A stretch of 64,000 bases of DNA from NCBI GenBank assembly GCA_015075305.1, contig JABTUS010000004.1, positions 62,001-126,000 on the forward strand, read 5' to 3'. The first letter of the stretch is position 1, and every line of letters starts with the position of its first letter. Below, in pieces: positions 43,339-63,153 of this stretch. The notes beneath the pieces are model-generated. The model saw only the letters and a list, made by a program, of their open reading frames with translations, searched no databases and was not told where the DNA came from. The position numbers and the translations under genes were made by a program. This DNA comes from Opitutaceae bacterium. GTDB taxonomy: Bacteria > Verrucomicrobiota > Verrucomicrobiia > Opitutales > Opitutaceae.

Positions 43339-43434
43339 CAGCGCGCATTCCCAGTTTCCGCAAATGACTGAGAGGAAGCGAGATTCCACGATTTTGCGGG
43401 ACATTTCGGAAAAACTTTTTCACTCTGGGTGGCC

Positions 43435-44871
43435 ATGAGCACAATGCCACTTGGGAAGCAGCCGAAGCCGCTGCCGGAAGATCGCGCGATGTTGTTGCGC
43501 ACGGTGCAGACGCAGGTTCTCGACACACCGGAACTGCGATTGAGAGCGCAGCAGCTGCTCAAGGAGCACCATTACCTTGGCGGGGTTCAGGCGGTGGGAG
43601 AGCAGATTCATTACGCGGTGAGCGATGCGCAGGGTGAGTGGGTGGCGGTGCTGATATTCGCGGCGGCCGCGCAGCACCTGCGGGCGCGAGAGCAGTGGAT
43701 TGGATGGAGCGATGAGCAGAGAAGGAGGAGGCTGGCGCTGGTGGCCAACAACGTGCGCTTCCTGATATTGCCCGGACGCAGCGTGCCCAATCTGGGTTCC
43801 GTGGTGCTCAGCCGGATACTGGCAAGGCTTGGCGAGGACTGGCAGGCGCGCTACGCTCATCCGGTGCTCGTGGTGGAGACCTTTGTGGATCCCGAGCGTT
43901 TCCAAGGCAGCGTCTACCGGGCCTCGGGTTGGACGGAGCTGGGGCTTACCAAGGGGCACGGACGCACACGGCGCGACTACTACGAAAACCACAACCGGCC
44001 CAAGCGGCTTTTTGTGTGTGAACTGGTCAGAAACGCGCGCCGCAGCCTTCAGGCCGAGCACCTGAAGCCCTCGCTGGCGGCGGTCGAGGCCAGGGTGCCG
44101 GTGCGCAGCACGCTCAAGGCCGCGGCACTCAAGTCGCTCTCGGAGCACTTTCGTGCGGTGCCTGAGTACCGGCAGCGTGTGGGCCGGTATCCGCTCTTTG
44201 CGCTGCTGGGGCTGACCGCGTGCGCCTATCTTGCCGGAGCGCCCCGGGGACAGAAGGATCTGGCGGCGTTTGCACGCCGGCTCTCCTCGCGCCAGCGCGG
44301 CGCGCTTGGTGTGAGGCGCATTTCCGGGAGCGGCTATCCGGCTCCCAGTCAGCCGACATTCAGCCGGATGTTCGCCCGCGTGAGCGAGGAGCAGATTGAG
44401 GCGGTGCTGCTCGCGCACCAGTCGCAGGTGCGGGGAGCACCGCCCAGTGGGCAGATCGTCGTGCTCGATGGCAAGGTGCCCAGGCACAGCGGCGGACTCA
44501 ATGTGGTCACCGCGGTCACCGTGCCCAGCCTTCACTTCCTGGGCACCGAGGTGGTGGCTGAAAAAACCAATGAGATACCCGCCGTGCGCACCCTGTGCTC
44601 GAGGCTCGAACTCGACGGGCGGCTTGTCAGCATCGATGCGCTGCACACCCAGGCGGAGACCGCCCGCCAGATCGTGCTCGAACACGGCGGCGACTACCTG
44701 ATGACCGTCAAAGGCAACCAGCCCCAGCTCGCCGCGACGGTGCAGGCGGCGGTGCCCGATCCCTCCCCCCCCCCTTTTTTTCTCCCCGCTGAACGATCCG
44801 ATGGCGGTGCGCTGCACCACAATGGAGAAAGGCCAGCCGGTCACCCGCACCCTTGTCGCTCGCGAGTTTGA
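43435..44871 (+). CDS. ISAs1-like transposase with N-terminal DUF4338 (DruA-like) domain, first frame
   Basis: 478 codons from ATG 43435. Residues about 30-200 look like DUF4338: LLKEHHYLGGVQAVGEQIHY, VANNVRFLILPGRSVPNLGS, ETFVDPERFQGSVYRASGW and YYENHNRPKRLFVCEL. Residues about 230-340 match the ISAs1 'DDE_Tnp_1-associated' N-terminus (FRAVPEYRQRVGRYPLFALLGL). The first two catalytic acids are seen in VVLDGKVPRHS and VSIDALHTQ, followed by DYLMTVKGNQPQ. The frame then runs through C10T7 (44765-44781) and ends in unrelated sequence. The true C-terminus with the catalytic Glu lies one frame over. Confidence 0.88.
   Translation: MSTMPLGKQPKPLPEDRAMLLRTVQTQVLDTPELRLRAQQLLKEHHYLGGVQAVGEQIHYAVSDAQGEWVAVLIFAAAAQHLRAREQWIGWSDEQRRRRLALVANNVRFLILPGRSVPNLGSVVLSRILARLGEDWQARYAHPVLVVETFVDPERFQGSVYRASGWTELGLTKGHGRTRRDYYENHNRPKRLFVCELVRNARRSLQAEHLKPSLAAVEARVPVRSTLKAAALKSLSEHFRAVPEYRQRVGRYPLFALLGLTACAYLAGAPRGQKDLAAFARRLSSRQRGALGVRRISGSGYPAPSQPTFSRMFARVSEEQIEAVLLAHQSQVRGAPPSGQIVVLDGKVPRHSGGLNVVTAVTVPSLHFLGTEVVAEKTNEIPAVRTLCSRLELDGRLVSIDALHTQAETARQIVLEHGGDYLMTVKGNQPQLAATVQAAVPDPSPPPFFLPAERSDGGALHHNGERPAGHPHPCRSRV
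44765..44781 (+). repeat. Homopolymer run C10T7 at the transposase frameshift
   Basis: Ten C (44765-44774) followed by seven T (44775-44781), exactly where the transposase reading frame switches. It may be a sequencing or replication error or a slippage site. Confidence 0.9.
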
Positions 44872-45262
44872 CGGGGAAGCCGCCGGTTTTCCCCTGCTTG
44901 CACAAGCCGCCCGGCTCCACCGGCACCGCACCCTCAAGCCATCCGAGACGGTGACTCTGATCACCAGTCGTCCACTGGCCCAACTGCCTGCGGCCCACTG
45001 GCTCAAGGTCAATATCCAGCACTGGGGCATCGAGAACGGACTGCATGCACGCCTCGACGTCTCACGCCATGACGACACCTGCCGCCTGCGCACACGAAGG
45101 GCCGTGCGCATCCACGCCATCTTCAACCGCTGGGCAAACAGCCTGTTCATCCACTGGCGCCGAAAACCTCATCACACCACCACTGACTTCATCGCCGCCA
45201 TGGCTGAAAACCATGACCAACGCGCCGTCTCCGCCGTCACCTCCCGCCACTTCCCTTCGTGA
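44801..45262 (+). pseudogene. C-terminal part of the ISAs1-like transposase, +1 frame
   Basis: 153 codons counted from the first ATG in this frame. Conserved ISAs1 C-terminus: PAAHWLKVNIQHWGIENGLHARLDVSRHDD (third catalytic acid, the Glu of GIEN) and IHAIFNRWANSLFIHW. Homology starts just after the C10T7 run, so one base gained there explains the break; transcriptional or ribosomal slippage is the alternative. The TGA stop (45260-45262) overlaps a GTG (45259) that opens the frame of the receptor's C-terminal half. Confidence 0.85.
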
Positions 45263-45272
45263 ATACGCGCTG

Positions 45273-45281
45273 CCTGAGCGT
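45273..45281 (+). repeat. Target-site duplication, right copy (CCTGAGCGT)
   Basis: Identical to 43330-43338; restores the receptor frame NLSVDYRLT when joined. Confidence 0.9.
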
Positions 45282-47211
45282 CGACTATCGTCTCACTCCG
45301 GAACTGACGCTCTCGTGGAGGAGCACCTATTCGTTCTACGATGTGGAGTATGTGAATCAGTACACCTACCTCTACGCCCCGGTGGCGACCCAGGTGGCGG
45401 GCAGCTCGATCACGCATGTCGTGGTGAACCCGGTGAATGCGGCGACAGGTGCCGTGGTCACCGGCGGAAGCAGTCCTCGCTTCCGGACGGAGTACTCCCA
45501 CCGGTACGCCGGAACGCCGGCGATGCTGCTCGCCCCAAAGCTGGAATACAAGGGGAACACATTCGAAGTGGCATTCCGGCCGAGCTATGCCAGATCGGAA
45601 TTCAATTTCCGTGACAACAGCAAGGGCTTCTTCCAGCGGACGGACACCTGGATCACACGCATCGGATTCACGGCGGACCGCCCGTCTGAAAACTCTCCAA
45701 CATGGACTCTCAAGCAAACGGCCGGTCGTCCCTGGGGTGATCCCGCCAGTGTGAATCGCGATGACGACATCGGCAATAACATCCGCAACGCGGAATCGGA
45801 CGCATCCAACGAACAATACGTCGGCAACCTCGATTTCAAGAAGGTGCTGGGCGTCCGAGGCTTTCCGGTCACCCTTTTTGGAGGCCTGGGCTATCGCACC
45901 AACGAATGGAAATCCATTGAAGGGTCGTATCGGCAGTTCCAATACGTCGGATCGACCGGCAATCTGAACCAGATGGATCCGCAGGCACTCATTCCCGCGA
46001 CGACAAACTACAAGTTCGATCTCAATCTGGATGGCCGTGGCGGGAATGTCACCGCGCAGAACTTTAGGGCGGACAGCAACTACGGTGTCTATGACATCTA
46101 CAGGCAGCACCCGGAGTATTTCGTTCCCGACACCACCGGCAATCTGACGCGGAAATTCCAGAACAACAAAAAAATATCCGAGGACATCAGCTCGGCCTAC
46201 GTGGAGGGACAGACAAAGGTCGGAAAAGCCCGCTTTGATCTCGGGCTGCGTTATGAGAGAACGGAAACTGCGGCATTGGTCGCCAATGTTCGTCCGGACA
46301 AGGAGGTCACCGCCGCAAACTACGCGCTGAACACGGTGGAGGGCATCACGTACAAGTACCGCAACGGCGAGCAGAACACGCGGCGCGGAAAGTACGGCGA
46401 CTGGTTCCTCAGCGGCGGCATGAAGTATGACATCACGAAAAAGCTGACCGGCCAGATTGCCTTCTCCGACTCGATCCTGCGCCCTGACTACGGAAATCTC
46501 GGCGGCATCGCGACGGTGAATGACAGCACCCAGATTGTAAACGTGCCGAATCCGGAGTTGAAACCGGAGCATTCCACGAAGTACTACGCGGGAATCCAAT
46601 ACTTCCTGGAACCGTCCGGCATCATCGGGCTGTCCTATTACAAACTCAAGGTGAACGACATGCAGCAGGCGGGCATCACCATCAACCCCGCGGATGCGGG
46701 CTACGATCCCACCGACTATCCGGGGTACACCTTTGTCAGTGCAGTGAACGGCGTTGGAACGTTTGAGACCGAGGGCATCACCGCGGAGTACAGCCAGCAG
46801 CTCACGTTCCTCCCGGGTGCACTCAAGGGCCTGAGCCTCCATGGATCGGTGACCCGTGTCATTGCCGACGGCCTGCGCATCGGTGTGCCCAATCGTTCCG
46901 GCAACTGGGGGCTTCGCTACCGGTACGGCCGGTTCAATGCCCAGATCAACGGCACCTGGACGACGATGTATCGCATTGGTTCGCTGAGTGACACTCCCAC
47001 GACCAATAACACGGGAATCCGCTGGCTGGCTGCGCGGGAGATGTGGAACCTCAGCGCCGGGTTCAGGCTGACAAAGCACTTTGACCTCATGCTATCGGGC
47101 CGCAATATCTTCAATGAGCCGTCGATCCAGTACACCAACGTCCCGGGGCGCGTCTATCTCTATGACGTCTATGGATCGCTGTGGAGTGCGGGCATTCGCG
47201 GTTCCTTCTGA
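45282..47211 (+). pseudogene. TonB-dependent receptor, C-terminal barrel part
   Basis: 643 codons of beta-barrel (SVDYRLTPELTLSWRSTYSFYDVEY... to the end GSLWSAGIRGSF with terminal Phe, the usual outer-membrane insertion signal). The frame is open from GTG 45259 inside the IS end, so a cytosolic fragment lacking signal peptide and plug could be made, but it cannot act as a receptor. The barrel contains EKLTG-type strands (KKLTGQIAFSDSILRPDYGNL and NPELKPEHSTKYYAG) typical of Opitutaceae carbohydrate receptors. The downstream lipoprotein follows after 5 bp. Confidence 0.9.
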
Positions 47212-51062: not shown

Positions 51063-52220
51063 CTACTGGGGTGACTTGTTGGAAGTCGGGGGAGCCTGGT
51101 CGAGATACATGTCCACCTCGCCCGGCTTGAAAGCCTTCGATTCCAACTGAAGCTTGCTGCGCTCGGAATGCGTCAGTTTCGAGAGATCCTCGGGCTGTTG
51201 AACGACGTGCGGAGTTAGAAAGATCAGGAGTTCGGTCTTCGAGTTTTGAGTGACCGTCCGCTTGAACAACTGCCCAAGCAGCGGTATGTCGCCGAGGAGG
51301 GGGATCTTGTTGTCCTGATTGATGCTCTGGTTGGAAATGAGACCGCCAATCACAACCGTGCGATCGCTGGGCGTCACCACGACGGTGTCCGCGGATCGTT
51401 TGTCGATCACCGGGGTGCTGACGGTTTCCGAGATCGCAACGGTCTTTTCGCTCAAGGCGGAGATCTCCGGAGTGACGATCATCTCAACGAGGCCCGCCGA
51501 GGTGATGAAGGGAGTCACCCGCAGGATGATGCCGATGTCCTGGTATTGCACGGTGTTCGTCGTCTGACCGGTGTCGCTGATCCTCGAGTTGGTGATGAAG
51601 GGAACCTCCTGGCCGACCATGATCGTGGCCTGCTGGCTGCTGCGCGCCAGGATGGAGGGGCGGGAAAGGATCTCGGTTTTTCCCACGGTCGACAGGGCGT
51701 GGATTGTGGCATCCACGTCTGCGTTCAGGATATTGAAAAATCCGCCGGTCGTGGGTGAGCCGAATTTCGTCGCGGCCGTCGAGACAATGTCGTTGCCCAG
51801 ATAGGTGCCCCGCTGGCTGAACTCCGCTCCCAGATCGAGGTCCTTGTTGTGCGTCACCTGCATGAATACGACATTGATCAGGACCTGCGGTTTCGGTCGG
51901 TCCAGACTCTCGATGATCTCCTTGATGTTCTTGTTGGTTTCGTCGTCGGCGACGACGATCAGGCGCCTTGTGATCGGATCGCTGCTGATCATGGCGTCGC
52001 CAAGCATGGTCGAATTCTGGTACTGTCTGTCACCTGCGGTGCGACCGCTGCGGGATGCGGCGGGACGCTGACTGGTGTTGGTCGTGCTGGAGCTGCGGTT
52101 TCCGGTCGTGCGGCTCGGCGTTCCCGGACGCGTGGTCTGGGCGGCGGCGGGCAGCCATGCGGAAAGCAGCGACAGCATCGCAAGGAGTCGGATTGAAGAA
52201 GATCGGAGGAGAGTCCTCAT
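51063..52220 (-). CDS. gspD: Type II secretion secretin GspD, C-terminal half (exported separately)
   Basis: A 385-aa protein with its own signal peptide (LLAMLSLLSAWLPAAAQ) and a Ser/Arg/Thr-rich linker (about 29-70). It then has the second half of an N3 domain (DPITRRLIVVADDETNKNIKEIIESLD) and a full secretin barrel domain (about 110-360: VLINVVFMQV, VGQEVPFITNSR, YQDIGIILRVTPFI, VVIGGLISN, IPLLGDIPLLGQLF). It forms the outer-membrane channel. The N0-N2 domains and first half of N3 are encoded by the gene 26 bp upstream. The C-terminal S-domain is short, so a pilotin may not be used. Confidence 0.88.
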   Translation of the reverse strand: MRTLLRSSSIRLLAMLSLLSAWLPAAAQTTRPGTPSRTTGNRSSSTTNTSQRPAASRSGRTAGDRQYQNSTMLGDAMISSDPITRRLIVVADDETNKNIKEIIESLDRPKPQVLINVVFMQVTHNKDLDLGAEFSQRGTYLGNDIVSTAATKFGSPTTGGFFNILNADVDATIHALSTVGKTEILSRPSILARSSQQATIMVGQEVPFITNSRISDTGQTTNTVQYQDIGIILRVTPFITSAGLVEMIVTPEISALSEKTVAISETVSTPVIDKRSADTVVVTPSDRTVVIGGLISNQSINQDNKIPLLGDIPLLGQLFKRTVTQNSKTELLIFLTPHVVQQPEDLSKLTHSERSKLQLESKAFKPGEVDMYLDQAPPTSNKSPQ

Positions 52221-52246
52221 GGCATGAAAGGGATTGGGTGATTCCG

Positions 52247-53452
52247 TCAGCGCTGACCGCGGCTGGATGAACTGTTGAGCAGGCCGCTGGCACTCTGCTG
52301 GCTGTTGTTGTTTGCACGGGCCGAGAGCGGATCACTCTGGTTGCTGCTTGTGCTCCGGGACGTGGTGCTTTCAAAGAGGTTCTTGAGGACATTCTCGACC
52401 TGGCTCACGTCGGCGTTCTCCAGGGTGTAAACAAACACCTTTTGTTTGCGGGCGCTGCTCTCGTCCAGTTGGGCAATGATCTCGCCGATCTGCAGCAGCG
52501 TGTCCTTTGATCCGGTGACGATGAGCGACTGGGTGCGGGGATCGGCGACTGCGGTGACCGGAGTCGTGGTTCGACTGCCGCTATTGCTCCGGCTGCTGCT
52601 GTCGCGGCCCCCGTTTCTGGATCCTGATCCGCCCCGGTTGGACAGGAATGCCGCGAACCGGGATTGGCTGCCGAACGGGAGTCCGCCCGCCGTTGACGCG
52701 CCGCCGGGAGCGCCGGAATTCGGGTAGAGGTTGGTGATCAGGTCCGCCATTTCGGTCGGATCGGCGTTGTGCAGCTTGAAGATGCGCATCGCGGCATCAC
52801 TTTGCACCGAAAGATCGAGCGCCGACACGATCTCGACGATGTGCCGGACATTGAGATTGGTGTCAGTGACGACGAGGGAGTTGCTGTCCTCGTTGGCGGT
52901 GATTGTTGCGCTGCTCGGAACCAGCGTGGCGATGTCGACGAGAACCTTTGCCGCCGTAATGTAGCGCAGCGGGATGACCTGCATGATCATTTCGGCGTTC
53001 GCCGGGATTTCCCGGGGATCGTTGCCGGTGCGAATCGGAAGATTCTTCTTCTTCGCCTCCTCCCGCGATGCGACTATCAGATTCCTGCCCTGCAGGGTTG
53101 CCGTGTAACCGTTCTTGTTGAGTGCCAGATTGAGAAGCTGGATCGCCTCGGCCTTTGAGACCGGCTGCGCGCTCCACATGTCGACGGTGCCGCGGACGGG
53201 TGTCTCCAGGATGATCACGAAGCCGGCTGCATCGCTCATGTAGTTGAGAACGGCTTCCAGCGGCGCGCCGCGGAAGTTGAAGCGAAGGGTGCCGTCCTTC
53301 GGGTAGCTGGAGCTGGAGTCCGGGCCGGTTGTTGCGGCCTTGACGGCTGGAAGCGTCTCGGCTGGCGCCGCCGGCGTCTGGGCGGCCAGTCCGCCCTGCA
53401 GCAGCAGGAGCGCGGCGATCGATCGGCTTGCGGGGAAATGAGGGATTTTCAT
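52247..53452 (-). CDS. gspD: Type II secretion secretin GspD, N-terminal periplasmic half (N0-N1-N2-partial N3)
   Basis: A 401-aa exported protein (signal peptide about 1-25). An N0-like domain lies at about 55-130 (LRFNFRGAPLEAVLNYMSDAAGFVII), N1 about 153-215 (VIPLRYITAAKVLVDIATLV) and N2 about 220-335 with a Gly/Ser/Arg insertion. The first half of N3 follows (VFVYTLENADVSQVENVLKNLF). It ends in a Ser/Asn/Gln-rich tail with no barrel domain. It overlaps gspC by 4 nt and is followed by the barrel-encoding gene, so the two must assemble as one secretin. Confidence 0.85.
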   Translation of the reverse strand: MKIPHFPASRSIAALLLLQGGLAAQTPAAPAETLPAVKAATTGPDSSSSYPKDGTLRFNFRGAPLEAVLNYMSDAAGFVIILETPVRGTVDMWSAQPVSKAEAIQLLNLALNKNGYTATLQGRNLIVASREEAKKKNLPIRTGNDPREIPANAEMIMQVIPLRYITAAKVLVDIATLVPSSATITANEDSNSLVVTDTNLNVRHIVEIVSALDLSVQSDAAMRIFKLHNADPTEMADLITNLYPNSGAPGGASTAGGLPFGSQSRFAAFLSNRGGSGSRNGGRDSSSRSNSGSRTTTPVTAVADPRTQSLIVTGSKDTLLQIGEIIAQLDESSARKQKVFVYTLENADVSQVENVLKNLFESTTSRSTSSNQSDPLSARANNNSQQSASGLLNSSSSRGQR

Positions 53453-54108
53453 TCGGTCAGTTGTTTTTGGCGTTGTTCCATCAGGCGGCGCAGCGTTGCG
53501 GGCGCATCGCTTGGGATGGGAACCGGCGTGTTGGGAGAGGCGGAGACTGCCGCAGGAGGCGGTGGGCTGTCTCCAAGCGGCTGCAGCACGGTGCTGACGA
53601 TCCAGTCTCCTCCCTTGCTTCGGCGCAGGGATTCGCCCAAGCGCAGCGTAAGAATGCGTTCATTCGAGGTCAGTGAGACGCTTCGCGGAGCAATCTGGGC
53701 AACCGTGAATCCGGCGATGGAATCTCCGATTGGGATCGTCTTCTGGTAGCGTGGATCATTGCCGTCGAAGAATGCAAAGAGGCCCTTTTCATATTGAAGG
53801 GTGCCGACGAATGTGACCACTCGATCCGTCGGCGCGGGCGCGGTCGGCGCGGTTCCGCGCGTCATGCGCGGCAGCCGGCTGGAATCAAAAATGTTTCGCT
53901 CTCCGATCGAGCGAAACCGGTCGAACATGTCCGCGGGCTGACGGGCCGGAGCGGGGTCGGTCTGCCGGAGATCGTCGCGGGATTGCGCATGAAGCACGGA
54001 ACCGCTCATGAGATCGAGGATCCCGATGGCGCCCGCGACCAGGAGCGCGGTGCGGCGAGCGGCGAGCCGCAATGAGGACTCGGAAAATCCGGCAGCGCGG
54101 GAAATCAT
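53449..54108 (-). CDS. GspC-like inner-membrane T2SS component
   Basis: A 219-aa protein with one N-terminal membrane segment (RTALLVAGAIGILDLMSGSVL). A periplasmic region resembles the GspC homology domain (FRSIGERNIFDSSRLPR, TFVGTLQYEKGLFAFFDG, SVSLTSNERILTLRLGESL). The C-terminal PDZ or coiled coil of Proteobacterial GspC is absent. GspC links the inner-membrane platform to the secretin N0 domain; its gene overlaps that of the N-terminal secretin half. Assignment rests on position and pattern, so moderate confidence. Confidence 0.72.
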   Translation of the reverse strand: MISRAAGFSESSLRLAARRTALLVAGAIGILDLMSGSVLHAQSRDDLRQTDPAPARQPADMFDRFRSIGERNIFDSSRLPRMTRGTAPTAPAPTDRVVTFVGTLQYEKGLFAFFDGNDPRYQKTIPIGDSIAGFTVAQIAPRSVSLTSNERILTLRLGESLRRSKGGDWIVSTVLQPLGDSPPPPAAVSASPNTPVPIPSDAPATLRRLMEQRQKQLTE

Positions 54109-54647
54109 GGCCTGCCTTCCAGGGCGGCGAGGCGCAGGCCGCTCACGGTCATTCCGATGGACAAACGCTGACCCTGGTCGTCCCGACTGGAGAGTTCGAC
54201 AGCGTCAATCCGCAGCGCGAGAGGGGATCGTTCCACGTCGTAGAGGAGCCGGACCAGGTTGGCGAGTGATCCGCTTGCGTCGACGCGACACTCGAGCACG
54301 GAGTAGCGCGGATTGGCGCCGCGTTTCCATTGCGGTTTGATCGATCCGATCTCGACGCGGCTGTCCCTCCCCCACTGGTCAAACGCATTGAGCACGAGCT
54401 GCTCGGCGATGGCAGCGTCCTTGGGCAGGGCGCCGTCCTGAATCTCCTTCCAGAGCTGATGGGTTCGCTCGGAACGCTCAATGCTCGCGGCTCCGGAAGC
54501 GAGCGAGCGCTTGAGAACCCCGATCTCCTGCGAGCGTGCGGTCCAGTGGCGGCTCAGCGGGGTGACCAGCAGTCGATCGACCAGAAACAATGCCACAATT
54601 GAAATGGCGGCGATCATCAGCAGGCGTTGGCGGGGGATGGCGCTCAT
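54105..54647 (-). CDS. GspM/PilO-like T2SS protein
   Basis: A 180-aa protein with one N-terminal membrane helix (LLMIAAISIVALFLVDRLLV), a coiled-coil stretch and a ferredoxin-like periplasmic domain (YSVLECRVDASGSLANLVRLLYDVERSPLALRIDAVEL). This layout is that of GspM/PilO, which pairs with GspL/PilN. It overlaps both the gspL-like gene upstream and the gspC-like gene downstream by 4 nt. Confidence 0.78.
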   Translation of the reverse strand: MSAIPRQRLLMIAAISIVALFLVDRLLVTPLSRHWTARSQEIGVLKRSLASGAASIERSERTHQLWKEIQDGALPKDAAIAEQLVLNAFDQWGRDSRVEIGSIKPQWKRGANPRYSVLECRVDASGSLANLVRLLYDVERSPLALRIDAVELSSRDDQGQRLSIGMTVSGLRLAALEGRP

Positions 54648-56005
54648 GATTCCGGGGTGCGTGTGACCTGGAAGGTGAAGGAGAACTGGGCGGGTGATTT
54701 CCCCCGGATCTGTTCAACCTTGAGATTGGCGACTTCCGTCCGCTGGCGCAGTTTTTCAAGGGAAGCCAGAAGTGCGGTGTTGTCACGGGTGACTCCGGTG
54801 ACGGTCACGCTGGACTGATTTCTGATCTCGAAGGACTTGGCGGTAACCGTGCCGTTTTCCGGAAAAACGTCGGTCACGAGACGGAGGACCTGAAGCGTCC
54901 GGTAGGAGGTGTCATGCCACGGACGAAACTCGCGGATGCGCGCCTGCAGGCCTTCGAGCTCATCGACCTGCGGCTGGATTTGCGCCCATTCACGACGGAG
55001 GTTCCAGGTTTCATATTCCCGCCAGGTGAATGCCGCGACGATTCCGACGATTGCGACAGCCAACAATGCAGCGGCGGAGCGGAGGCGTCGGCGATTGTAG
55101 CGGCGGGTCCACCGCTCCCAACGACTCGGCCGGGGTGGCAGGAGGTTCGGAAGTTCGCCAGCGGCCTGCAGACCGCGACTGGCGATGGCAGCGGCGCTCT
55201 GCTGGAGCGTCCATTCGGCGATTTCCAGCGAAATGGACGCCGAAGTTGCCCAGCCGGCGAGCAATTCGCGGATGACCTGGCATTCGGAAGGCTCACCAAG
55301 CAGACGAAGCTTGCGGATGCGCCGGCGGATCGGAGGCGGACATTCCTCGAAGGTGATGCGGATGTCGCGGACCAGAGCGGCGGGCGTTTCGATCGTGGAT
55401 GTCAGCGTCCGTGCGGTCACCATCCCTTTTCCGAAACTGATGGTCAGGGATGGAGGCGATTCCGAAAGCAACAGGGACAGGATGCCCTCGTCCGCTGCCT
55501 CCGCAGGCTTCGGAAGCGCGGCTGGATGCAGCGTGAAACGGATCGGCTTCAGACCGGCTGTCGAGAGCAGGTCGGACATGCGATCGACGTCCGTCCGACG
55601 AATCGCGAATTGGGTGATGATGGTCACACCGTCGATAGTCTGAGTCGACCGGGTGATGAACAGATCATCGCGTTCGCAGGGAAAGGCGCTTTCGGCCTCC
55701 AGTTGAAGCAGGCTTTCCGCGTCGGCTTGCGGCAGGCCCGGCAGTTCCGTTGCCACGGACATGGACCATTCGGCGGGGAGTGCGACGATGCAGCGCCTTT
55801 CGCGCACACCGGCACGCGTCAGATGTTCGGAGAGCCGCGCAGCGGTTTGGGGTGGATCATTCCAGACGTTTTCAACCGGAAGCGGGTCGATCGGAGCCGC
55901 CTCAATCGAATCCGCGGCACCGGATGCGTGTGCGACATGGATGCCTCGCCGGCTGAAAACCAAGCCGAGCAAGGAAGCTTTTCTGGATGAGATGAGTCGG
56001 TTCAT
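54644..56005 (-). CDS. GspL-like (PilM-PilN fusion) T2SS protein
   Basis: A 453-aa protein. Residues about 1-270 form an actin-like PilM/GspL cytoplasmic domain (LLGLVFSRRGIHVAHASG, CIVALPAEWSM). A membrane helix lies at about 315-335 (SAAALLAVAIVGIVAAFTW), followed by a PilN-like periplasmic domain with coiled coil (LRREWAQIQPQVDELEGLQARI). GspL recruits the GspE ATPase to the membrane. The ATG at 56005 overlaps the gspK stop by 4 nt; a longer in-frame extension would lie inside gspK. Confidence 0.82.
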   Translation of the reverse strand: MNRLISSRKASLLGLVFSRRGIHVAHASGAADSIEAAPIDPLPVENVWNDPPQTAARLSEHLTRAGVRERRCIVALPAEWSMSVATELPGLPQADAESLLQLEAESAFPCERDDLFITRSTQTIDGVTIITQFAIRRTDVDRMSDLLSTAGLKPIRFTLHPAALPKPAEAADEGILSLLLSESPPSLTISFGKGMVTARTLTSTIETPAALVRDIRITFEECPPPIRRRIRKLRLLGEPSECQVIRELLAGWATSASISLEIAEWTLQQSAAAIASRGLQAAGELPNLLPPRPSRWERWTRRYNRRRLRSAAALLAVAIVGIVAAFTWREYETWNLRREWAQIQPQVDELEGLQARIREFRPWHDTSYRTLQVLRLVTDVFPENGTVTAKSFEIRNQSSVTVTGVTRDNTALLASLEKLRQRTEVANLKVEQIRGKSPAQFSFTFQVTRTPES

Positions 56006-57351
56006 CGCCTGGCAACAAGGTGATCCCGCAGTTGATCGCGCTGGGCCGATCCCAACGCCCATCCCGCTGCCGTCAAATCCTGCCGCGAGAGGATGCGCGG
56101 CAAATCCCGGCGGGTGTCAAAGACGAACTTGGCGCGCGAATAGCCGCGACCGTACGGACCGACGGCGACGATATCGGCTGAAAATTGGTAGGATTGATCG
56201 GTCAGATAGCGACCCGCGCGGACTATGGTGGCCCGATCCAGGACCTCCGGCAGCCAGGCGAACGAGGAGAGCGCATCGGGGTGAGCTGAGCGGTAGGCAA
56301 CGATCGCGCGAGCCTTGTCCCAGTCGAATCCGGGAATGCAGGCGAGCACGGCCTCCGGTGCGGTATTGACATTGATGAGGCCCGTCACGTCGGTGCCGGT
56401 GATGTCGGTGTGTATCTGCTGGAATTCCGCCGCGGTGAACCGCCCTCGAATCATGAATTCGGCCACGCTCGCCACCGGTGACGACCCCACGCCGCTGAGA
56501 ATGGACTGCGCGCGCGCTTCGCCCAGCTTGGTGGAGAGCAGTTGTACAAGCCGGGGGCGCTGGTCCGGCAGCTGCACATTGATGCGCTGTCCGCCGTCGG
56601 CGCGTGTCCGGGGCTGGCGGGAATAAACCGTGACGTATTCGAGGATCCCGGGCGAAAGCACCCCATCGCGGTCGTCCATTGGCTGGCTGGCATCTCCGTC
56701 GTCCTCATTCGGATCCAGTGTTCCGTTTCGATTGGTGTCCTCTCCGAACAGAATTCGCAGCGTCGCACCGTAGACCAGACGCAGTTCATCAATGCTTTCA
56801 AAAGGGGCGTTTTTCGCGAGACGGGGCGGGTCCAGGCGGGCGTAGGTCTCGTCCTCGGCTCCATTTTCCGTCGGCTCGGAATTGCGATCACGCCAGTCGA
56901 TGATGGCTGCCGCAAGCTCGATGGTCATTCCCGGCAGGGCCTCGAGCATGGCCCGCGAGGCGGTGTTGATGTTCAGCTTGGATGCCTCATCCACGATGTT
57001 GAAGACAGGGTCCGTCGACGGTGCCAGATTCGGATCGCGACCCAGGATCCAGAAGGCGGCATCGCCCACCGGAACATCCTCGGCAAGATAATCGGTGGAG
57101 AGGGGGAGCGATCCGTTCGCTGCATGCCGGCTCAGGACGAACTGGACATAGCGTGCGCCGCCATCGACGGCGGACTCGGCGGCAAGCGACACCACTCGAT
57201 TGTCCGCGCTGCGAAGCTCCATGGCGGTGCTTTCAGCGAAGTAGAGCGCCAGCGCTGCAAGTCCGAAACACACCCACATGACAATGATCAGGATTGCCCC
57301 GCGTGTGCCGCGGATCGCCATTGCGGGCGATGATCGGTGCGAGGCAGTCAT
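56002..57351 (-). CDS. gspK: Minor pseudopilin GspK
   Basis: A 449-aa large pseudopilin. A short leader precedes RGAILIIVMWVCFGLAALALYF, which lacks the Glu5 of other pseudopilins, as is usual for GspK. LNINTASRAMLEALPGM and LINVNTAPEAVLACIPG are helix-hairpin-helix-like GspK repeats. An EF-hand-like calcium loop, DTNRNGTLDPNED, lies in the middle. GspK caps the pseudopilus tip with GspI and GspJ. It overlaps gspJ and gspL by 4 nt each. Confidence 0.87.
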   Translation of the reverse strand: MTASHRSSPAMAIRGTRGAILIIVMWVCFGLAALALYFAESTAMELRSADNRVVSLAAESAVDGGARYVQFVLSRHAANGSLPLSTDYLAEDVPVGDAAFWILGRDPNLAPSTDPVFNIVDEASKLNINTASRAMLEALPGMTIELAAAIIDWRDRNSEPTENGAEDETYARLDPPRLAKNAPFESIDELRLVYGATLRILFGEDTNRNGTLDPNEDDGDASQPMDDRDGVLSPGILEYVTVYSRQPRTRADGGQRINVQLPDQRPRLVQLLSTKLGEARAQSILSGVGSSPVASVAEFMIRGRFTAAEFQQIHTDITGTDVTGLINVNTAPEAVLACIPGFDWDKARAIVAYRSAHPDALSSFAWLPEVLDRATIVRAGRYLTDQSYQFSADIVAVGPYGRGYSRAKFVFDTRRDLPRILSRQDLTAAGWALGSAQRDQLRDHLVARR

Positions 57352-58055
57352 GGCACGGCCTCCGGCTCCGGAGAATCTGTTGCGGCGAGGCTGACAAAAA
57401 CGGGGATCACCATCTCGACCGGCGCGGTTCGCGTGGCTCCGTCGTTCGAATCCTCAGCCAGCTGCAAGGTCAGACGTACCGCCTTCGGCAGGGAGGCAGT
57501 CGCCTCTGAATCCCAAGTGTCCACCCAGGTGCTGCCGTCAAAATATTCGAAGAATGCCGAAGCGACATTGCCCAGGAGCCACTGAACCTCCGGCTGGTCG
57601 GCGGTGGCCGTCAGCAGATTCCGGCTGAATGTGCGAACCAGGTCATACCGATCGGGGTCGGGGCCGGGTTGCAGGTAGTAAGCGACGCGCTGGGCGTCGG
57701 CAAAGGGCGTGAGGGGACTTATCTCACCCGAGTTTGTGAAAAACTCCGCACTGATGCGCTCCCCCTGGATCGACGAATCCAGGTTGTAATCCACGGCAGT
57801 CTGAAAGCTGGTCGCGATTGTGCCGCCCGGGAGCATCAGTCCCAGGAAATCCTTTTTTATCCGATCCAGAGCCCGGTAGAGTGACAGCTCCTGATCACTG
57901 CGTCGTTGAGCGGTGTTGCGCAGACGAAGGGCGCCAAAGAAGGCTCCCTGAACCGCGAGGACGACGATCGCTCCAACGGCCATCGCAAGGATGACCTCAA
58001 GGAGAGTGAATCCTGACGCCTGCCGCGGACGCCGGTTGGTTCGCGAAATTTTCAT
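57348..58055 (-). CDS. gspJ: Minor pseudopilin GspJ
   Basis: A 235-aa pseudopilin. The prepilin peptidase site is SGFTLLEVILAM (cleavage before Phe, Glu5 present), followed by a long hydrophobic helix. The globular part contains ELSLYRALDRIKKDFLGL, typical of GspJ. It overlaps gspI and gspK by 4 nt. No prepilin peptidase (gspO) is in the window. Confidence 0.83.
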   Translation of the reverse strand: MKISRTNRRPRQASGFTLLEVILAMAVGAIVVLAVQGAFFGALRLRNTAQRRSDQELSLYRALDRIKKDFLGLMLPGGTIATSFQTAVDYNLDSSIQGERISAEFFTNSGEISPLTPFADAQRVAYYLQPGPDPDRYDLVRTFSRNLLTATADQPEVQWLLGNVASAFFEYFDGSTWVDTWDSEATASLPKAVRLTLQLAEDSNDGATRTAPVEMVIPVFVSLAATDSPEPEAVP

Positions 58056-58558
58056 TCAAACTGAACGGACGTGGCATCGGGATCCGTTTGGGTCAGGGTT
58101 GGGTCGTAAAGCGTGCCCATGCTGACGTCATAGCTCTTGCCCTGAACGTCGAAAGTGACCTCGACCGTCACGAGATTCATGGCGTCCATTTCCCAATTGG
58201 ACGTCTGCACGCGCCAATCGTAAGTATTGGAGCCCTCTCGAGCCTGACCGGATTCGGACCCGATCTGGCCTGTCACGACGAACTCGTTCAGAATGCGCTT
58301 CGCAATCCGGGCGGCACCGGCCTTTCGATCCGCGACCGTTCCCACCCGATTGACAATGCTCACCCCTTCGAGCGCCACGGGGATGATCACTGCCATGAGC
58401 GTGAGCGAGGCGAGGACTTCGGCCAGTGTGAACCCCCGGCTCGGCCCGGGCGAAACGGTCGCGCGTGGGTTCGCCACGGCTCCATCTCTGGGGCGCATGG
58501 CCGTCGCTGAAAGGCAATCCCGCGCGTCGCGATTCATCATCACCCGTTCCATCTTCAT
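58052..58558 (-). CDS. gspI: Minor pseudopilin GspI
   Basis: A 168-aa pseudopilin with a leader of about 41 residues, unusually long for this class, ahead of RGFTLAEVLASLTLMAV (Glu5 present). The true start may be one of several internal ATGs, since MKMERVMM offers three. The C-terminal part (MNLVTVEVTFDVQGKSYDVSMGTLY) is GspI-like. It follows gspH with stop and start directly adjoining. Confidence 0.78.
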   Translation of the reverse strand: MKMERVMMNRDARDCLSATAMRPRDGAVANPRATVSPGPSRGFTLAEVLASLTLMAVIIPVALEGVSIVNRVGTVADRKAGAARIAKRILNEFVVTGQIGSESGQAREGSNTYDWRVQTSNWEMDAMNLVTVEVTFDVQGKSYDVSMGTLYDPTLTQTDPDATSVQFE

Positions 58559-59128
58559 TCAGCGATTGGTTTTTCCGCCCACAGGGATGAGCTCATAAGC
58601 GAGGCCGTTTGACATCAGCTGAAGGGAGACGGCGGATAGATCGTCCTGCCTCAAAATCACCTGAGAGACGCTGGCTGCGTCAACGAGGCCATCAGGCCGA
58701 AAGAGGATGCCCGCTGGGATCGAGTGCTGAGGCATTTCATCATCCTCGTAGGGGGGCGGTTCCGTGGAAGCGACGGTCTCGATGGTGACGTCTCGATCGA
58801 CATCGTAGACGACCGAGCGTTCGTCCTCATCGGAGAAGCCGGCTTGAATTTTGAGTCCGTATTGACGCGCGGAGGCGTCGATCCAGAGAAGCATTGGGTA
58901 TCCCTCGGTGGCGGCGCGACTCTGCGCATAGTGGGTCAGCGACAGGAGACGCCTCGCCTCGCGGTCGAGCGCGCGCCCGCGGAAGAAACCGGCCATTTGT
59001 GGCACCGCCAAGCTGGCTGCGATGGCAAGCAAAGCCATGACCAGAATGAGTTCGATCAGCGTGAAGCCAGAGCGCGGCCGCGATGAACCACGGCTAGCGG
59101 CCGGCAATCGCTCCGTTGAAGATGTCAT
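58559..59128 (-). CDS. gspH: Pseudopilin GspH
   Basis: A 189-aa pseudopilin. Cleavage site SGFTLIELILVMALLAIAAS (Glu5 present) after a leader of about 21 residues from ATG 59128. ALDREARRLLSLTHYAQSRAATEGYPMLLWID is characteristic of GspH. It overlaps the 3' end of gspG by 35 nt. It connects the pseudopilus shaft to its tip. Confidence 0.83.
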   Translation of the reverse strand: MTSSTERLPAASRGSSRPRSGFTLIELILVMALLAIAASLAVPQMAGFFRGRALDREARRLLSLTHYAQSRAATEGYPMLLWIDASARQYGLKIQAGFSDEDERSVVYDVDRDVTIETVASTEPPPYEDDEMPQHSIPAGILFRPDGLVDAASVSQVILRQDDLSAVSLQLMSNGLAYELIPVGGKTNR

Positions 59129-59552
59129 CCGCGGTATTGAGCTGTCCGTCGGGGCCCGCCGATCGCAGGTCGTAACCCGACGGATTGTTGCGACCCGGAA
59201 ATTCATAGACATAGGGGTGACCCCACGGATCGAGGGGAATGTCGCTCTTCAAATAGGGGCCGCGCCAGCCGGAAACATCCCCCGGGGCGACGACCAGCGA
59301 TTGAAGGCCGGCTCCACCAACGGGGTAGGCTCCCGTATCGACCTCAAAGGCATCGAGCGCCGTGCCAAACGTCGCGATTTGAGTCTGGGCGGCCGTGATG
59401 CGAGCCTGTTCCGTTCGTCCGGTGAATTTCGGAAGGACAAGTGCGGCAAGCGTGCCGAGAATGACGAGGACGAGCAGCAGCTCAACCAGAGTGAATCCGG
59501 AGGTGCCGCGGCGGATCGGGGATGACAGTGTGCGCATGGTCGGAAAAATCAT
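59094..59552 (-). CDS. gspG: Major pseudopilin GspG
   Basis: A 152-aa protein. The cleavage site SGFTLVELLLVLVILGTLAALVLP with Glu5 is classical. GPYLKSDIPLDPWGHPYVYEFPG and the calcium-site loop SAGPDGQLNTADDI are diagnostic for GspG. It polymerises into the pseudopilus that pushes folded exoproteins through the secretin. It overlaps the gspF stop by 4 nt. Confidence 0.95.
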   Translation of the reverse strand: MIFPTMRTLSSPIRRGTSGFTLVELLLVLVILGTLAALVLPKFTGRTEQARITAAQTQIATFGTALDAFEVDTGAYPVGGAGLQSLVVAPGDVSGWRGPYLKSDIPLDPWGHPYVYEFPGRNNPSGYDLRSAGPDGQLNTADDIFNGAIAGR

Positions 59553-60868
59553 TTGATGTGATCCTGCAGGGAGAAGATGGGAATCAGCATCCCTATGAAA
59601 ATGGTGCCGACGAACGCGGCGATCAGGAAGAGCAGCAGGGGTTCAGCGAGAGACACGACGGACTTCAACTCGCGGTCGAGATCGGTTTCAGTCGTTCCCG
59701 CGATGCGGACGAGTTCCTTGTCCAACCGGCCGCTTTCCTCCGCGACGGATATCATTTCGATGACAGCCCCGGGGAAGAGCGATCGATTCTTCGCAAGGCT
59801 GACACCCAGCGGCTGCCCCTCCTTGACGCGATCGATGGAGTCGCTGACCGCGTCGACCAGGATCTGGTTTCCAATCGAGCGCCGCGCGACATTCAGTCCG
59901 CTGATCAGGGGGACACCGGCTCCGAGCAATGTTCCCAGCATGCGGCAGAATCGCGCCATTGCGTACTGGGCGGTGAGTGAACCGATGGCTGGAACCTTGA
60001 GCAGGGAGCCCTCCCAGGCCCGTCGTCCGCGTTCCGATTTTAACCAACTGCGGAGCACCCAGACAAGCGCGGCAATCGCCGCCGCAACCAGGAGGCCGTA
60101 GCTCCGGATGATTTCACTGATTCCGACGATGATCTGCGTGATGAGCGGCAGCTCGGCATTGAATCCCTTGAAGACCAGTTGAAATTTTGGAATGAAGAAG
60201 ACCAGGAGAAAGATGATCACGGCGATTGCCAGGACCAGCAGCACGGCGGGATAGATGAGGGCGGCTGCGACCTTCGATTTCAGTTCCTTCTCCCGCGACT
60301 GAAAATCGGCGATCTGCGCGAGGACCAGGTCAAGGAATCCGCCCGTCTCCCCGGCCTCCACCATGGCGACATAGACACGGGGGAAAGTTTCCGGCGAGAG
60401 AGCCATTGCGGACGACAAGGACATGCCGTCGACGACCCGGTCGTGCAGCTCCTTCCATTTTGCCTTGGCCGTTGGAACCACCGCCTCCCGATGAAGAATG
60501 CCCAGCGCGCGGCTGAATGGGACGCCTGCAGCGAGCAGACTTGAGAGCAGCCGGGTGAAGTTCTCGAGGATCCTGGGTGTGATTTGTCGCGGGCGATGCC
60601 AGAGTGAATTCGTGGCTTTTCCCTCGGGGGATGCCGGGCGGGCCTTCGATTTTGAATCGGACTCGGAGGACAGGTTGTTCCCATTTCGTGACTCAGGTTT
60701 TGGGTGTCCCGATGAGCGATTGCTGGACTGAGCACCCTCAGTCAACCGGATCGGCTTGAGCCCGCGACCCTCGATCTCACGCAGAGCCTGCTGTCGACCG
60801 CCAGCCTCCAGCACGCCTTCGACGACTCCACCGTCTGACTGCAGGGCCTTGTAGGTGAATGCAGGCAT
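59549..60868 (-). CDS. gspF: T2SS inner-membrane platform protein GspF
   Basis: A 439-aa protein with two repeated T2SSF domains (about 100-225 and 302-430). Each carries a GxLxxG-like core: LLAAGVPFSRAL with VEAGETGGFLDLVL, and LLGAGVPLISGL with VAEESGRLDKELV. Three membrane segments are seen. A hydrophilic Ser/Lys-rich insertion at about 45-90 is longer than usual. GspF couples GspE to pseudopilus assembly. It overlaps the gspE stop by 1 nt. Confidence 0.93.
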   Translation of the reverse strand: MPAFTYKALQSDGGVVEGVLEAGGRQQALREIEGRGLKPIRLTEGAQSSNRSSGHPKPESRNGNNLSSESDSKSKARPASPEGKATNSLWHRPRQITPRILENFTRLLSSLLAAGVPFSRALGILHREAVVPTAKAKWKELHDRVVDGMSLSSAMALSPETFPRVYVAMVEAGETGGFLDLVLAQIADFQSREKELKSKVAAALIYPAVLLVLAIAVIIFLLVFFIPKFQLVFKGFNAELPLITQIIVGISEIIRSYGLLVAAAIAALVWVLRSWLKSERGRRAWEGSLLKVPAIGSLTAQYAMARFCRMLGTLLGAGVPLISGLNVARRSIGNQILVDAVSDSIDRVKEGQPLGVSLAKNRSLFPGAVIEMISVAEESGRLDKELVRIAGTTETDLDRELKSVVSLAEPLLLFLIAAFVGTIFIGMLIPIFSLQDHIK

Positions 60869-62571
60869 CAGGCGACGGAGTTGCTACCGACAACGAGGAC
60901 CTCATTGGACGGAGAGGCGCTCAGAATCTCGTCGATGGTCGTCAGCCCCTCCCGGACCAGGCGCCGACCATCCTCGGCGAGTGTCCGCATGCCACCATGC
61001 ATCGCCGCGGCACGCAGGAGATCGGAGGAAGCGTTTTTCAGGATCAGTTCGCGGATTTCGGCGCTGTTGTCCATCCACTCAAAGATGGCGTGCCGCCCGT
61101 GATAACCCGTCTGGCGGCATTCACGACAACCGACAGCCTGGTAAACCGCGGTGTCTGTGTTAAGTCCGAGGCTGCGTTTGAAGGCTGCTGCATCCGGTCG
61201 ATCGTCCGGTCGTTTGCAGTGGGGGCAGAGGAGGCGCACAAGGCGCTGTGCGAGGACCGCCTCCAGTGAGGAGGCGACCAGGTAGGGCTCGACGCCCATG
61301 TCGACCAGACGGGTGATTGCACCCGGGGCATCATTGGTGTGAAGAGTCGAGAAAACCAAGTGCCCGGTCAGTGAGGCCTGAACGGCGATTTGGGCTGTTT
61401 CATGGTCGCGAATTTCGCCGATCAGGATGACATCCGGATCGTGTCGCAGGATCGACCGCAGGCCGCGAGCGAATGTGAGGCCGGATTTTTCGGAGACCTG
61501 GATCTGATTGACTCCGCGCAATTGGTATTCGATCGGGTCCTCAATTGTTATGATCTTGCGCTCGGCATCATTGATTTCCTGCAATGCGGTGTAGAGCGTG
61601 GATGTTTTTCCGCTGCCAGTCGGTCCGGTCACGAGGACGATGCCATGAGGAAGCTGCAGGACCCGCTGCAGGCAGGCCAGCTCCCGTTGAGCCATGCCCA
61701 GATCTCGCACGCCGCGGAGTGCCGCATTCTGGCGCAGCAGGCGCATGACGACCGCCTCGCCGTGCAGCATGGGGATGATGGATACGCGGATGTCGATCTC
61801 TGCCGCATCGATCTTGACCTTTATCCGACCGTCTTGAGGAAGTCGCTTTTCCGCGATGTTCAGGTGGCTCAGAATCTTGACCCGGGCAACGATCGCAGGC
61901 TGGAAACGCTTGACCTGCGCCGGTACGGGAACGTCCTGCAGCACTCCATCGATGCGGTAGCGGATGCGCAGTTCATTCTCGAATGGCTCGAGATGGACGT
62001 CGGAAGCCCGCAGGTCGATCGCGTCCTTGAGCACTTGATTGACGAAGCGGATGATCGAGGCGTCCTCAGCCGCATCATCGAGATTGCCATCGCCGGCACC
62101 GTCGTCGTCGACGACCTGGATCGCCGTCTCACCGTCAAGGATGCCAATGGTGTCCGCGCCTACGCCGAGGCGTTTCTTCAACTCTCGTTGAATGATCTCG
62201 CCGGGCGCGAGCACCGGAATGAGGCGGAGGCCCGTGACAACCTTCAGGCCGTCGATTGCGCTGGAAAAGAACAGACGCGCCGTTGCGATTTCGATTGCAT
62301 CGTCCCGGCGGCGGATGGGCAGCAGTCCATCGCGCAGGAGCAGTCGTGCCGGAAAGAGGGACAACAGGTCCTTGTCCGGGTGGGCATCGTCCAGCGTGCT
62401 GAAGGTCAGCCCGTATTCCTGCGCAAGCCAGCGCAGGGCGTTTTCCTCGGACACCGATGCCGCATCAGTCGTCGCCAGATAGGCGTGCGCATCCGTTTCC
62501 GTCAGTTGACGGGTCGTGATCATCCGACTGAGCAATTCCGGAAGGGTTCGCGAGACTTCGGGGGCTGGCAT
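60868..62571 (-). CDS. gspE: T2SS assembly ATPase GspE
   Basis: A 567-aa secretion ATPase. N-terminal GspE/MshE-like domain, then DAIDLRASDVHLEPFENELRIRYRIDG. Walker A GPTGSGKTS (Lys322), Asp box and Walker B (DVILIGEIRD), and His box TGHLVFSTLHTND are present. A four-cysteine metal site follows (LCPHCKRP and GCRECR). It drives pseudopilus assembly from the cytoplasm, anchored by the GspL-like protein. It lies 18 bp after the hypothetical secreted protein gene. Confidence 0.95.
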   Translation of the reverse strand: MPAPEVSRTLPELLSRMITTRQLTETDAHAYLATTDAASVSEENALRWLAQEYGLTFSTLDDAHPDKDLLSLFPARLLLRDGLLPIRRRDDAIEIATARLFFSSAIDGLKVVTGLRLIPVLAPGEIIQRELKKRLGVGADTIGILDGETAIQVVDDDGAGDGNLDDAAEDASIIRFVNQVLKDAIDLRASDVHLEPFENELRIRYRIDGVLQDVPVPAQVKRFQPAIVARVKILSHLNIAEKRLPQDGRIKVKIDAAEIDIRVSIIPMLHGEAVVMRLLRQNAALRGVRDLGMAQRELACLQRVLQLPHGIVLVTGPTGSGKTSTLYTALQEINDAERKIITIEDPIEYQLRGVNQIQVSEKSGLTFARGLRSILRHDPDVILIGEIRDHETAQIAVQASLTGHLVFSTLHTNDAPGAITRLVDMGVEPYLVASSLEAVLAQRLVRLLCPHCKRPDDRPDAAAFKRSLGLNTDTAVYQAVGCRECRQTGYHGRHAIFEWMDNSAEIRELILKNASSDLLRAAAMHGGMRTLAEDGRRLVREGLTTIDEILSASPSNEVLVVGSNSVA

Positions 62572-62589: not shown

Positions 62590-63153
62590 CTAGGGCAGGA
62601 GACCCATCAGCACCGCGATGGCTTCCTGACGAACATTGAGGACGGCGCGCAATTCCTCCTGGGCGCCTGCGAGTTTTTCGGCATTCTGTTTGCGAACCTC
62701 CCGAAGTCGTTCGAGCCGCGCCTTGAGATCCGCAACCGTGGCATTGTTTTGGATGGCGGTCGAAAGGGCTTCCGCCTCGGGATTGGATCCGCCACCTGAC
62801 ATGCCAAAGCGGGATCGCGCACCGTCGCTGCCGCCGCCCGGCGTGCCCATGAAAACGCCGCCAAACAGGGAGTTTCGGCGCAACTCCTCCACTTTCGCGA
62901 GCCGTTGACTGATCAACGACCATTCCTCGTCATTGCTGACATCAAAACGCTGCCTCAGCGCATCCAGCATGCGTTGGCGCCGCTCTTCCAGGGACGTGCT
63001 TGCGCGGCGTTCCCTTCGAAATGAACGACCATCGGCCGGAGCGCCGTCATTGGCTGCTGAATTTGGCGACTGAGCACGGATCGTGACACACAGGCAGCCG
63101 AGCATTGCGACGATCGGAATGGCCCGGCGCAACTTGTGGTGGGACAGAGTCAT
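62590..63153 (-). CDS. Secreted coiled-coil protein at the head of the T2SS operon
   Basis: A 187-aa protein with a signal peptide (IPIVAMLGCLCVTIRAQ). It has two helical, charged regions with coiled-coil character: about 50-95 (LEERRQRMLDALRQRFDVSNDEEWSLISQRLAKVEELR) and about 125-180 (ADLKARLERLREVRKQNAEKLAGAQEELRAVL). They are joined by a Gly-rich linker. I do not recognise the family. As the first gene of the operon, immediately before gspE, it may be an envelope accessory factor of this secretion system; this is inference from position. Confidence 0.65.
   Translation of the reverse strand: MTLSHHKLRRAIPIVAMLGCLCVTIRAQSPNSAANDGAPADGRSFRRERRASTSLEERRQRMLDALRQRFDVSNDEEWSLISQRLAKVEELRRNSLFGGVFMGTPGGGSDGARSRFGMSGGGSNPEAEALSTAIQNNATVADLKARLERLREVRKQNAEKLAGAQEELRAVLNVRQEAIAVLMGLLP

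Follow-up and report, generated by a model that had tools for sequence, protein, structure and literature searches.

A bacterial type II secretion secretin encoded by two genes, divided inside the N3 domain and proposed to be joined through its half-domains

Can the secretin of a type II secretion system (T2SS) be built from two separately encoded chains, and if so, where do they meet? The question is raised by two neighboring genes in a window of 64,000 nucleotides (the whole stretch of DNA analyzed here) from an Opitutaceae bacterium, which together resemble the secretin GspD. We refer to them as D1 (an ORF of 401 aa) and D2 (385 aa); the two reading frames differ. Their features are listed below, in positions of the window and from the start of D1 to the end of D2.

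52247..53452 (-), D1, which encodes the N-terminal half of GspD: a putative signal peptide, the domains N0 to N2, the opening strand and helix of N3 and a low-complexity tail, from the ORF, Pfam and TIGR02517
53381..53452 (-), putative signal peptide of D1, residues 1-24, cleavage proposed before a Gln, from the translation by eye
53078..53281 (-), N0 domain, D1 residues 58-125 (PF21305, E 3.3e-12)
52373..52453 (-), N3a, the first strand and helix of N3, D1 residues 334-360, from the alignment, conservation and the secondary structure in models of relatives
52250..52372 (-), Ser/Asn/Gln/Gly low-complexity tail of D1, residues 361-401, first half of the N3 loop, from conservation
52221..52246 (-), gap of 26 nt between the D1 stop and the D2 start, from the ORFs
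51063..52220 (-), D2, which encodes the C-terminal half of GspD: a putative signal peptide, a linker, the remainder of N3 and the secretin barrel, from the ORF, PF00263 and TIGR02517
52140..52220 (-), putative signal peptide of D2, residues 1-27, followed by Gln28, from the alignment and a signal-peptide rule
52029..52139 (-), Ser/Arg/Thr-rich linker, D2 residues 28-64, second half of the N3 loop, from the ORF translation and conservation
51894..52028 (-), N3b, the other two strands and the helix of N3 with a lead-in, D2 residues 65-109, from Pfam, the alignment and the model of locus L008
51198..51698 (-), secretin barrel domain, D2 residues 175-341 (PF00263, E 3.4e-48)

Pfam identified in D1 the N0 domain of GspD and three Secretin_N stretches, and in D2 a complete Secretin domain together with only the second half of a Secretin_N (profile positions 31-69 of 69, residues 74-112, E 0.0043), which at 17.7 bits stays below the cut-off of 28.2. 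The best NCBIfam model for both proteins is that of GspD (TIGR02517), of which D1 covers positions 1-286 (166.1 bits) and D2 positions 265-600 (233.8 bits); neither of them alone reaches the cut-off of 351.35 bits, so such systems may be annotated as lacking a secretin. N0 and the ring domains N1-N3 are present only when D1 and D2 are taken together. The XcpQ structure 5wln was matched by D2 (E 6.1e-37) and, at its N-terminal domains, by D1 (E 2.2e-11), and a profile of D2 relatives also matched solved GspD structures.

Within N3, the break is located in the loop that follows the opening strand and helix. A sequence-only reading of this DNA had proposed this same division, with the rest of N3 and the barrel in the second gene, and Pfam, TIGR02517 and the relatives all agree with it. 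After dropping four repeats we have gathered 125 split loci (105 clusters at 90% identity) and aligned the 102 pairs in which D1 is complete and the signal peptide of D2 was called. N3a is found in D1 and N3b in D2 in 101/102 of them, with nothing crossed; the exception, L129, is a three-gene locus that entered the pairing with its first gene alone. The alignment was used instead of a motif search for the N3 halves, which missed N3a in 48/125 loci and N3b in 10/125. Mean information is 2.53 bits for N3a and 2.46 for N3b, with the other domains at 2.25-2.72, and comes to 1.67 in the tail of D1 and 1.65 in the linker of D2. The Ser/Asn/Gly loop in which the break had been placed can be recognized in these two low-complexity stretches and also in the intact relatives (loci L151, L154, L157, L159 and L161), all five of which have a long low-complexity loop exactly at the cut site. 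The alignment of D2, as a single sequence, to XcpQ starts at XcpQ residue 288, after a Gly/Asn-rich stretch, and the profile of D2 relatives, linker included, extends back to residue 266. A loop, 288-303, was omitted from the cryo-EM model of PulD (passages of PMC6882859), and the D2 relatives align to PulD from about residue 307, in a numbering that may be offset relative to that publication.

Two genes 26 bp apart, each with a signal peptide, had been described from the sequence alone, and the description stands: the ORFs lie as stated and both D1 and D2 of the source have, by eye, starts like those of signal peptides. For the relatives we have used a crude rule that considers charge, a hydrophobic stretch and small residues at -3 and -1, with a bonus for Gln after the cleavage site. 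It fires at D2 in 122/125 split loci, more than by chance: the other two frames of almost the same DNA give 12/125 and 4/125, the test stretch reaching up to 300 nt before the end of D1 and the control DNA beginning 100 nt before it. The three D2 starts that were missed (L090, L104 and L140) resemble signal peptides by eye. At D1 the rule calls a signal peptide in 79/102. A Gln follows the D2 cleavage site in 100/122, a count inflated by the bonus of the rule, and Gln28 is nearly invariant in 32 aligned D2 sequences whose starts were chosen without it. Shine-Dalgarno-like motifs before D2 give a weak signal (35/122 against 16.2 expected).

At first sight, adjacent ORFs in different frames resemble a frameshift, and one could think of a relic or an artefact, that is, of a gspD in decay or of an error in the assembly or the frame. 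We give this next to no credence, given that the same split and the signal-peptide-like D2 starts recur over so many loci and clusters. The offsets of D2 relative to D1 are distributed nearly evenly over the three frames (49/44/36, with the four repeats included). Between the source and a relative from the same genus (L008), dN/dS is 0.083 for D2 and 0.113 for D1, with dS above 1, and between L007 and L008 it is 0.036 and 0.085, respectively; judging by these ratios of about 0.1, purifying selection acts on both genes. Decay, assembly error and frameshift were rejected on the offsets, the D2 starts and dN/dS, in line with the earlier argument that a chance frameshift does not account for two signal peptides. 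Just as hard to believe is that one polypeptide is made after all, through a programmed frameshift or stop readthrough. What speaks for it is the adjacency of the genes and nothing else, and the signal peptide of D2 would fall in the middle of such a chain; the spread of the offsets over all three frames led us to reject programmed recoding.

How widespread is the split? Close relatives were searched for an intact gspD at this locus and none of those examined has one. Within the genus D2 is in its own frame in 10/10 genomes, with D1 upstream at all 10 loci, and in the family 14 of the 80 genomes match (E 1e-40), all 14 with the split. The sample of the order contributed 2 matching genomes out of 177, both among those already counted, and within the order the system is rare and patchy. 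In the class 48/286 genomes match and the best matches are split in 46 of these 48, the exceptions being a distant single-chain secretin (genome G368) and a genome with a giant secretin only (G423). The phylum sample gave matches at 1e-60 in 10/387 genomes, 8 of them split, the low-scoring L081 and L082 being not split. Among the best 80 named loci, 74 are split, five are intact and one (L121) starts inside D2 at a contig end. Taxon names are here the record labels as deposited, and most records are MAGs. By these labels the split loci belong mostly to Verrucomicrobiota, but also to Kiritimatiellota, Sumerlaeota, Hydrogenedentota and Omnitrophota, with two lacking a phylum label, and the intact ones are L151 (Sumerlaeota), L154, and L157, L159 and L161 (Planctomycetota). 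Plasmid records gave no match at 1e-40, and viral contigs gave three distant secretins and nothing else. The division of a ring-building domain has been kept, then, across much of the phylum and, by record labels, beyond it, and such wide retention of a split N3 suggests that a pore of this kind can be put together from parts that are exported on their own.

The arrangement of the pair is also quite constant. D1 is in its own ORF just upstream of D2 at the 47/47 loci first examined, and the gap, with starts set by the rule, is of -28 to 98 nt in 116/122 loci and longer in six. At locus L124 (2768-3578) D1 and D2 are about 800 nt apart, and no gene was recognized between them by eye. From the translation and the consensus, the D1 of relatives outside Opitutia (e.g., L124) seemingly has one N domain more than that of the source. 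A separate observation concerns giant secretins, open frames of about 1800-4300 aa with a secretin match (L163 in G419, L164 in G475 and L165 in G423), which appear in at least 13 of the 48 matching genomes of the class (E 1e-40). The L165 piece (3524 aa) combines, in a single chain, one barrel with 32 Secretin_N stretches, which makes the stack of ring domains very long; its start resembles N0 weakly, scoring below the Pfam cut-off.

The genes around D1 and D2 are T2SS genes, with no T3SS cluster, and the operon continues upstream of D1 as follows.

53449..54108 (-), GspC-like protein (NCBIfam GspC_delta, E 1.4e-8, 34.8 bits, below the cut-off of 150)
54105..62571 (-), remainder of the T2SS operon: M, L, K, J, I, H, G, F and E (reading order from E to M)

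The stop of the GspC-like gene overlaps the start of D1 by 4 nt, and a Pfam search with its product gave no match. N0 is the GspC-binding domain, and the GspC-like protein is its expected partner. Among the remaining genes, M, K, J, G and E score over their Pfam cut-offs and I below its own; GspL has weak PilN/PilM matches only, under their cut-offs, GspE and GspF match NCBIfam T2SS models with scores under the cut-offs, and GspH was assigned by eye, from a pilin-like start and its position. Among the best 80 named loci, 66 have a homologue of L nearby, 68 one of M and 66 one of C, and several of the others are short contigs. Before gspE there is a protein of 187 aa (62590-63153, minus strand) with a signal-peptide-like start and no NCBIfam match. 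Elsewhere in the window (43429-47211) the translations suggest a transposase-like ORF that seems to carry a frameshift; it is immediately followed by an ORF resembling a TonB receptor, for which no start is obvious.

The source genome encodes also an intact GspD-like protein of 705 aa (G000:C1:1030-3147) that covers positions 2-595 of TIGR02517 and sits, with E-like and F-like genes, in a small T2SS-like D-E-F cluster (L194 1030-6241, G000:C1). The D1/D2 pair may therefore not be the sole route out. One might even imagine D1 as a shared vestibule serving this intact secretin, or both, with D1-D2 pairing of secondary importance. We regard this as very improbable: over the span covered the intact protein has N domains of its own, and in none of the best 80 loci was D2 found without D1 where there was room for it (L121 is cut by the contig and five loci are single-chain).

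The reading that we favor, and hold to be quite likely, is that of a bacterial multi-chain T2SS secretin in which two exported chains are joined by complementation of N3 half-domains. On the sequence side it is backed by the split, its place and its breadth, the signal-peptide-like starts, the selection on both genes and the conserved neighborhood. Both D1 and D2 would be exported by Sec. D2 would form the barrel and carry the second half of each N3, and D1 would supply N0-N1-N2 plus the first strand and helix of N3, which would be a KH-like ring-building domain (strand-helix-strand-strand-helix). Docking of the D1 half on the D2 half would take place in the periplasm, presumably at a 1:1 stoichiometry, and only upon this docking would N3 fold and become the joint between vestibule and pore. 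We infer a role in secretion for the assembled complex, and the secretin probably works only once the two N3 half-domains find each other.

Alternatively, D2 could be the whole working pore and D1 a loose adaptor to the inner-membrane platform, with N3 left incomplete, much as proposed for RhcC1. D1 does retain N0, the GspC-binding domain, beside a GspC-like gene, and RhcC1 and RhcC2 have been assigned to one system despite their different origins (passages of PMC3459982). However, N3a, in D1 a strand and a helix without a partner, is conserved about as strongly as full domains, and there are relatives with three chains that are cut again inside domains and not between them; on balance we find a loose adaptor improbable. 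These three-gene loci come from a Verrucomicrobiales MAG (L129, 1719-4761) and a Sumerlaeota MAG (L123, 1489-5080). The first gene encodes N0-N1 and the first half of N2, the second the other half of N2 up to the first half of N3, and the third the rest of N3 and the barrel, domains of the new pieces being assigned by eye and from the profile ranges (2-208/209-457 and 2-219/223-458). Where the start is present, each piece begins, by eye, like a signal peptide. L130 (1-2682), near L123, has the same layout except that its first gene is truncated where the contig ends, and on the tree L123/L130 are widely separated from L129, so that the three loci represent two lineages. The extra cut is inside N2, at the loop matching the N3 cut. 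That a domain should again be divided, and at the equivalent loop, is the strongest indirect evidence for half-domains as joints, as the favored two-chain assembly would have them.

Structure models were obtained with AlphaFold2 from read-through single chains of the relatives L008 and L099, the D1/D2 pair of the source being unsuited to this kind of folding as its frames do not join. The overall confidence of both models is low (35 alignment rows, pLDDT 65.3 and pTM 0.37 for L008; 36 rows, 66.5 and 0.35 for L099), and the training of AlphaFold2 includes knowledge of GspD. In both models N3a is predicted as strand-helix and N3b as strand-strand-helix, with pLDDT in ten-residue blocks of 65-85 and 74-87, respectively; two complete N3 domains were looked for and are absent. 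N0 of both models aligns to solved GspD N0 domains with rmsd 1.3-1.9. For the L008 model, the matches to XcpQ and pIV set in at the first N3 strand, and the N3-starting alignments to solved secretins mostly begin at model residue 283-286, which is N3a (5w68, 5wln, 9k8v, 7ofh and 6pee, among others); that to 8jvb begins at 296. Residues 383-547 of the L099 model, which span the break, match the N domain of HofQ (2y3m; 63 residues, rmsd 2.4, Z 7.2) and also 1tua, which we take to be a KH-domain protein (61 residues, rmsd 2.2, Z 6.2), both Z values being in the range graded as middling by the comparison tool. The models show that the N3 halves fit together within one chain and so rebuild N3, and the binding of separate chains is beyond what they show. 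Of the reassembly through N3 put forward by the sequence-only reading, the fit of the halves is what conservation and these two read-through models support. Mean-field DCA on the 102 pairs (effective number 63, L129 included) placed 4 N3a-N3b couplings in the top 150 versus 5.1 expected, and the positive control, N2a-N2b, failed too (4 versus 4.0).

A wider reading, which taken as a whole is tentative and in our opinion rather unlikely, makes half-domain complementation a general secretin joint in this group. KH-like N domains would be cut after the first strand and helix, each piece would be provided with a signal peptide, and the ring would consist of two or three exported chains. The vestibule would be freed from the pore and could differ from it in turnover or in copy number (e.g., 12 copies, in keeping with GspC, below a pore of 15); the unassigned half N-domain proteins of the mitochondrial T2SS would also be explained. 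The sequence-only reading had likewise imagined a vestibule that could be exchanged or turned over separately. A 15:12 mismatch between GspD and GspC has been reported and debated (passages of PMC10550240), and makes the question of copy number a hard one in single-chain GspD. The split pair could serve as a natural system for measuring the copy numbers of vestibule and pore apart.

As for the origin of the split, the cut in an ancestral gspD would have fallen within a long loop of Gly, Ser and Asn, and D2 would have acquired a start and signal peptide of its own, either newly arisen or retained from a duplicated copy. The similarity between the D1 and D2 signal peptides is equal within and between loci (20.5 versus 20.7, 79 loci), which speaks neither for nor against an origin by duplication. 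The intact L151 gene follows K, L, M and C genes, as at the source locus, and near the other intact genes are K and M (L154), L and M (L159), M (L161) or none (L157). On the tree the five intact loci are one starred clade, two label changes being needed when distant paralogues are included. Rooting on these paralogues is unreliable, their branches being long, and with the root unsure one old split without return and one rejoining both fit.

Canonical GspD (PulD, XcpQ/XcpD, EpsD) has likewise the order N0-N1-N2-N3-barrel and an operon in which a GspC-like gene accompanies most of the genes from E to M, whereas here there are two genes, two signal-peptide-like starts, a divided N3 and two long halves of a low-complexity loop. 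That GspD is normally one polypeptide, taken as established in the sequence-only reading, is uncontradicted by our searches as far as bacteria are concerned, but in mitochondria a split GspD has been reported (passages of PMC8134430). In the open-licence PMC literature we found no report of a split bacterial GspD, and the passages of PMC3422733, PMC13274419, PMC6532946, PMC9251779 and PMC4500985 are silent on it. T2SS secretins have been described as a C-module (N3 and barrel) plus an N-module (N0-N2) (passages of PMC10550240); this bimodular view likewise divides vestibule from pore, but the cut here is inside N3 and not at the N2/N3 border of the modules.

Closer in arrangement are RhcC1 and RhcC2 of the rhizobial and P. 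syringae T3SS-2, a secretin in two genes (PMC3574062, PMC3973906) that, like D1 and D2, divide a normal secretin into an N-terminal and a C-terminal part. In the passages at hand RhcC2 derives from a Tad secretin and RhcC1 from another one, by partial replacement (PMC3459982). That system differs in being a T3SS, in the different origin of its parts and in the other genes between them, and the passages of PMC3574062, PMC3973906 and PMC3459982 mention no domain shared by both chains. D2 is not such a C-terminal part of other, Tad-type origin, GspD being the best model for both halves. In the mitochondrial T2SS, GspD is split into several polypeptides, with GspDN1-N3, and GspDN2 and GspDN3 are halves of an N domain; the authors were unable to assign the pieces to N1, N2 or N3 (passages of PMC8134430). 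That system is eukaryotic, and its N0 and GspC were not found (same passages), whereas the one described here is bacterial and has N0. An N domain shared between two polypeptides is found both in mitochondrial GspD and here (N3, and N2 as well in L123 and L129), a likeness of arrangement from which we claim no kinship, and in this sense the split pair is a bacterial counterpart to the split mitochondrial GspD.
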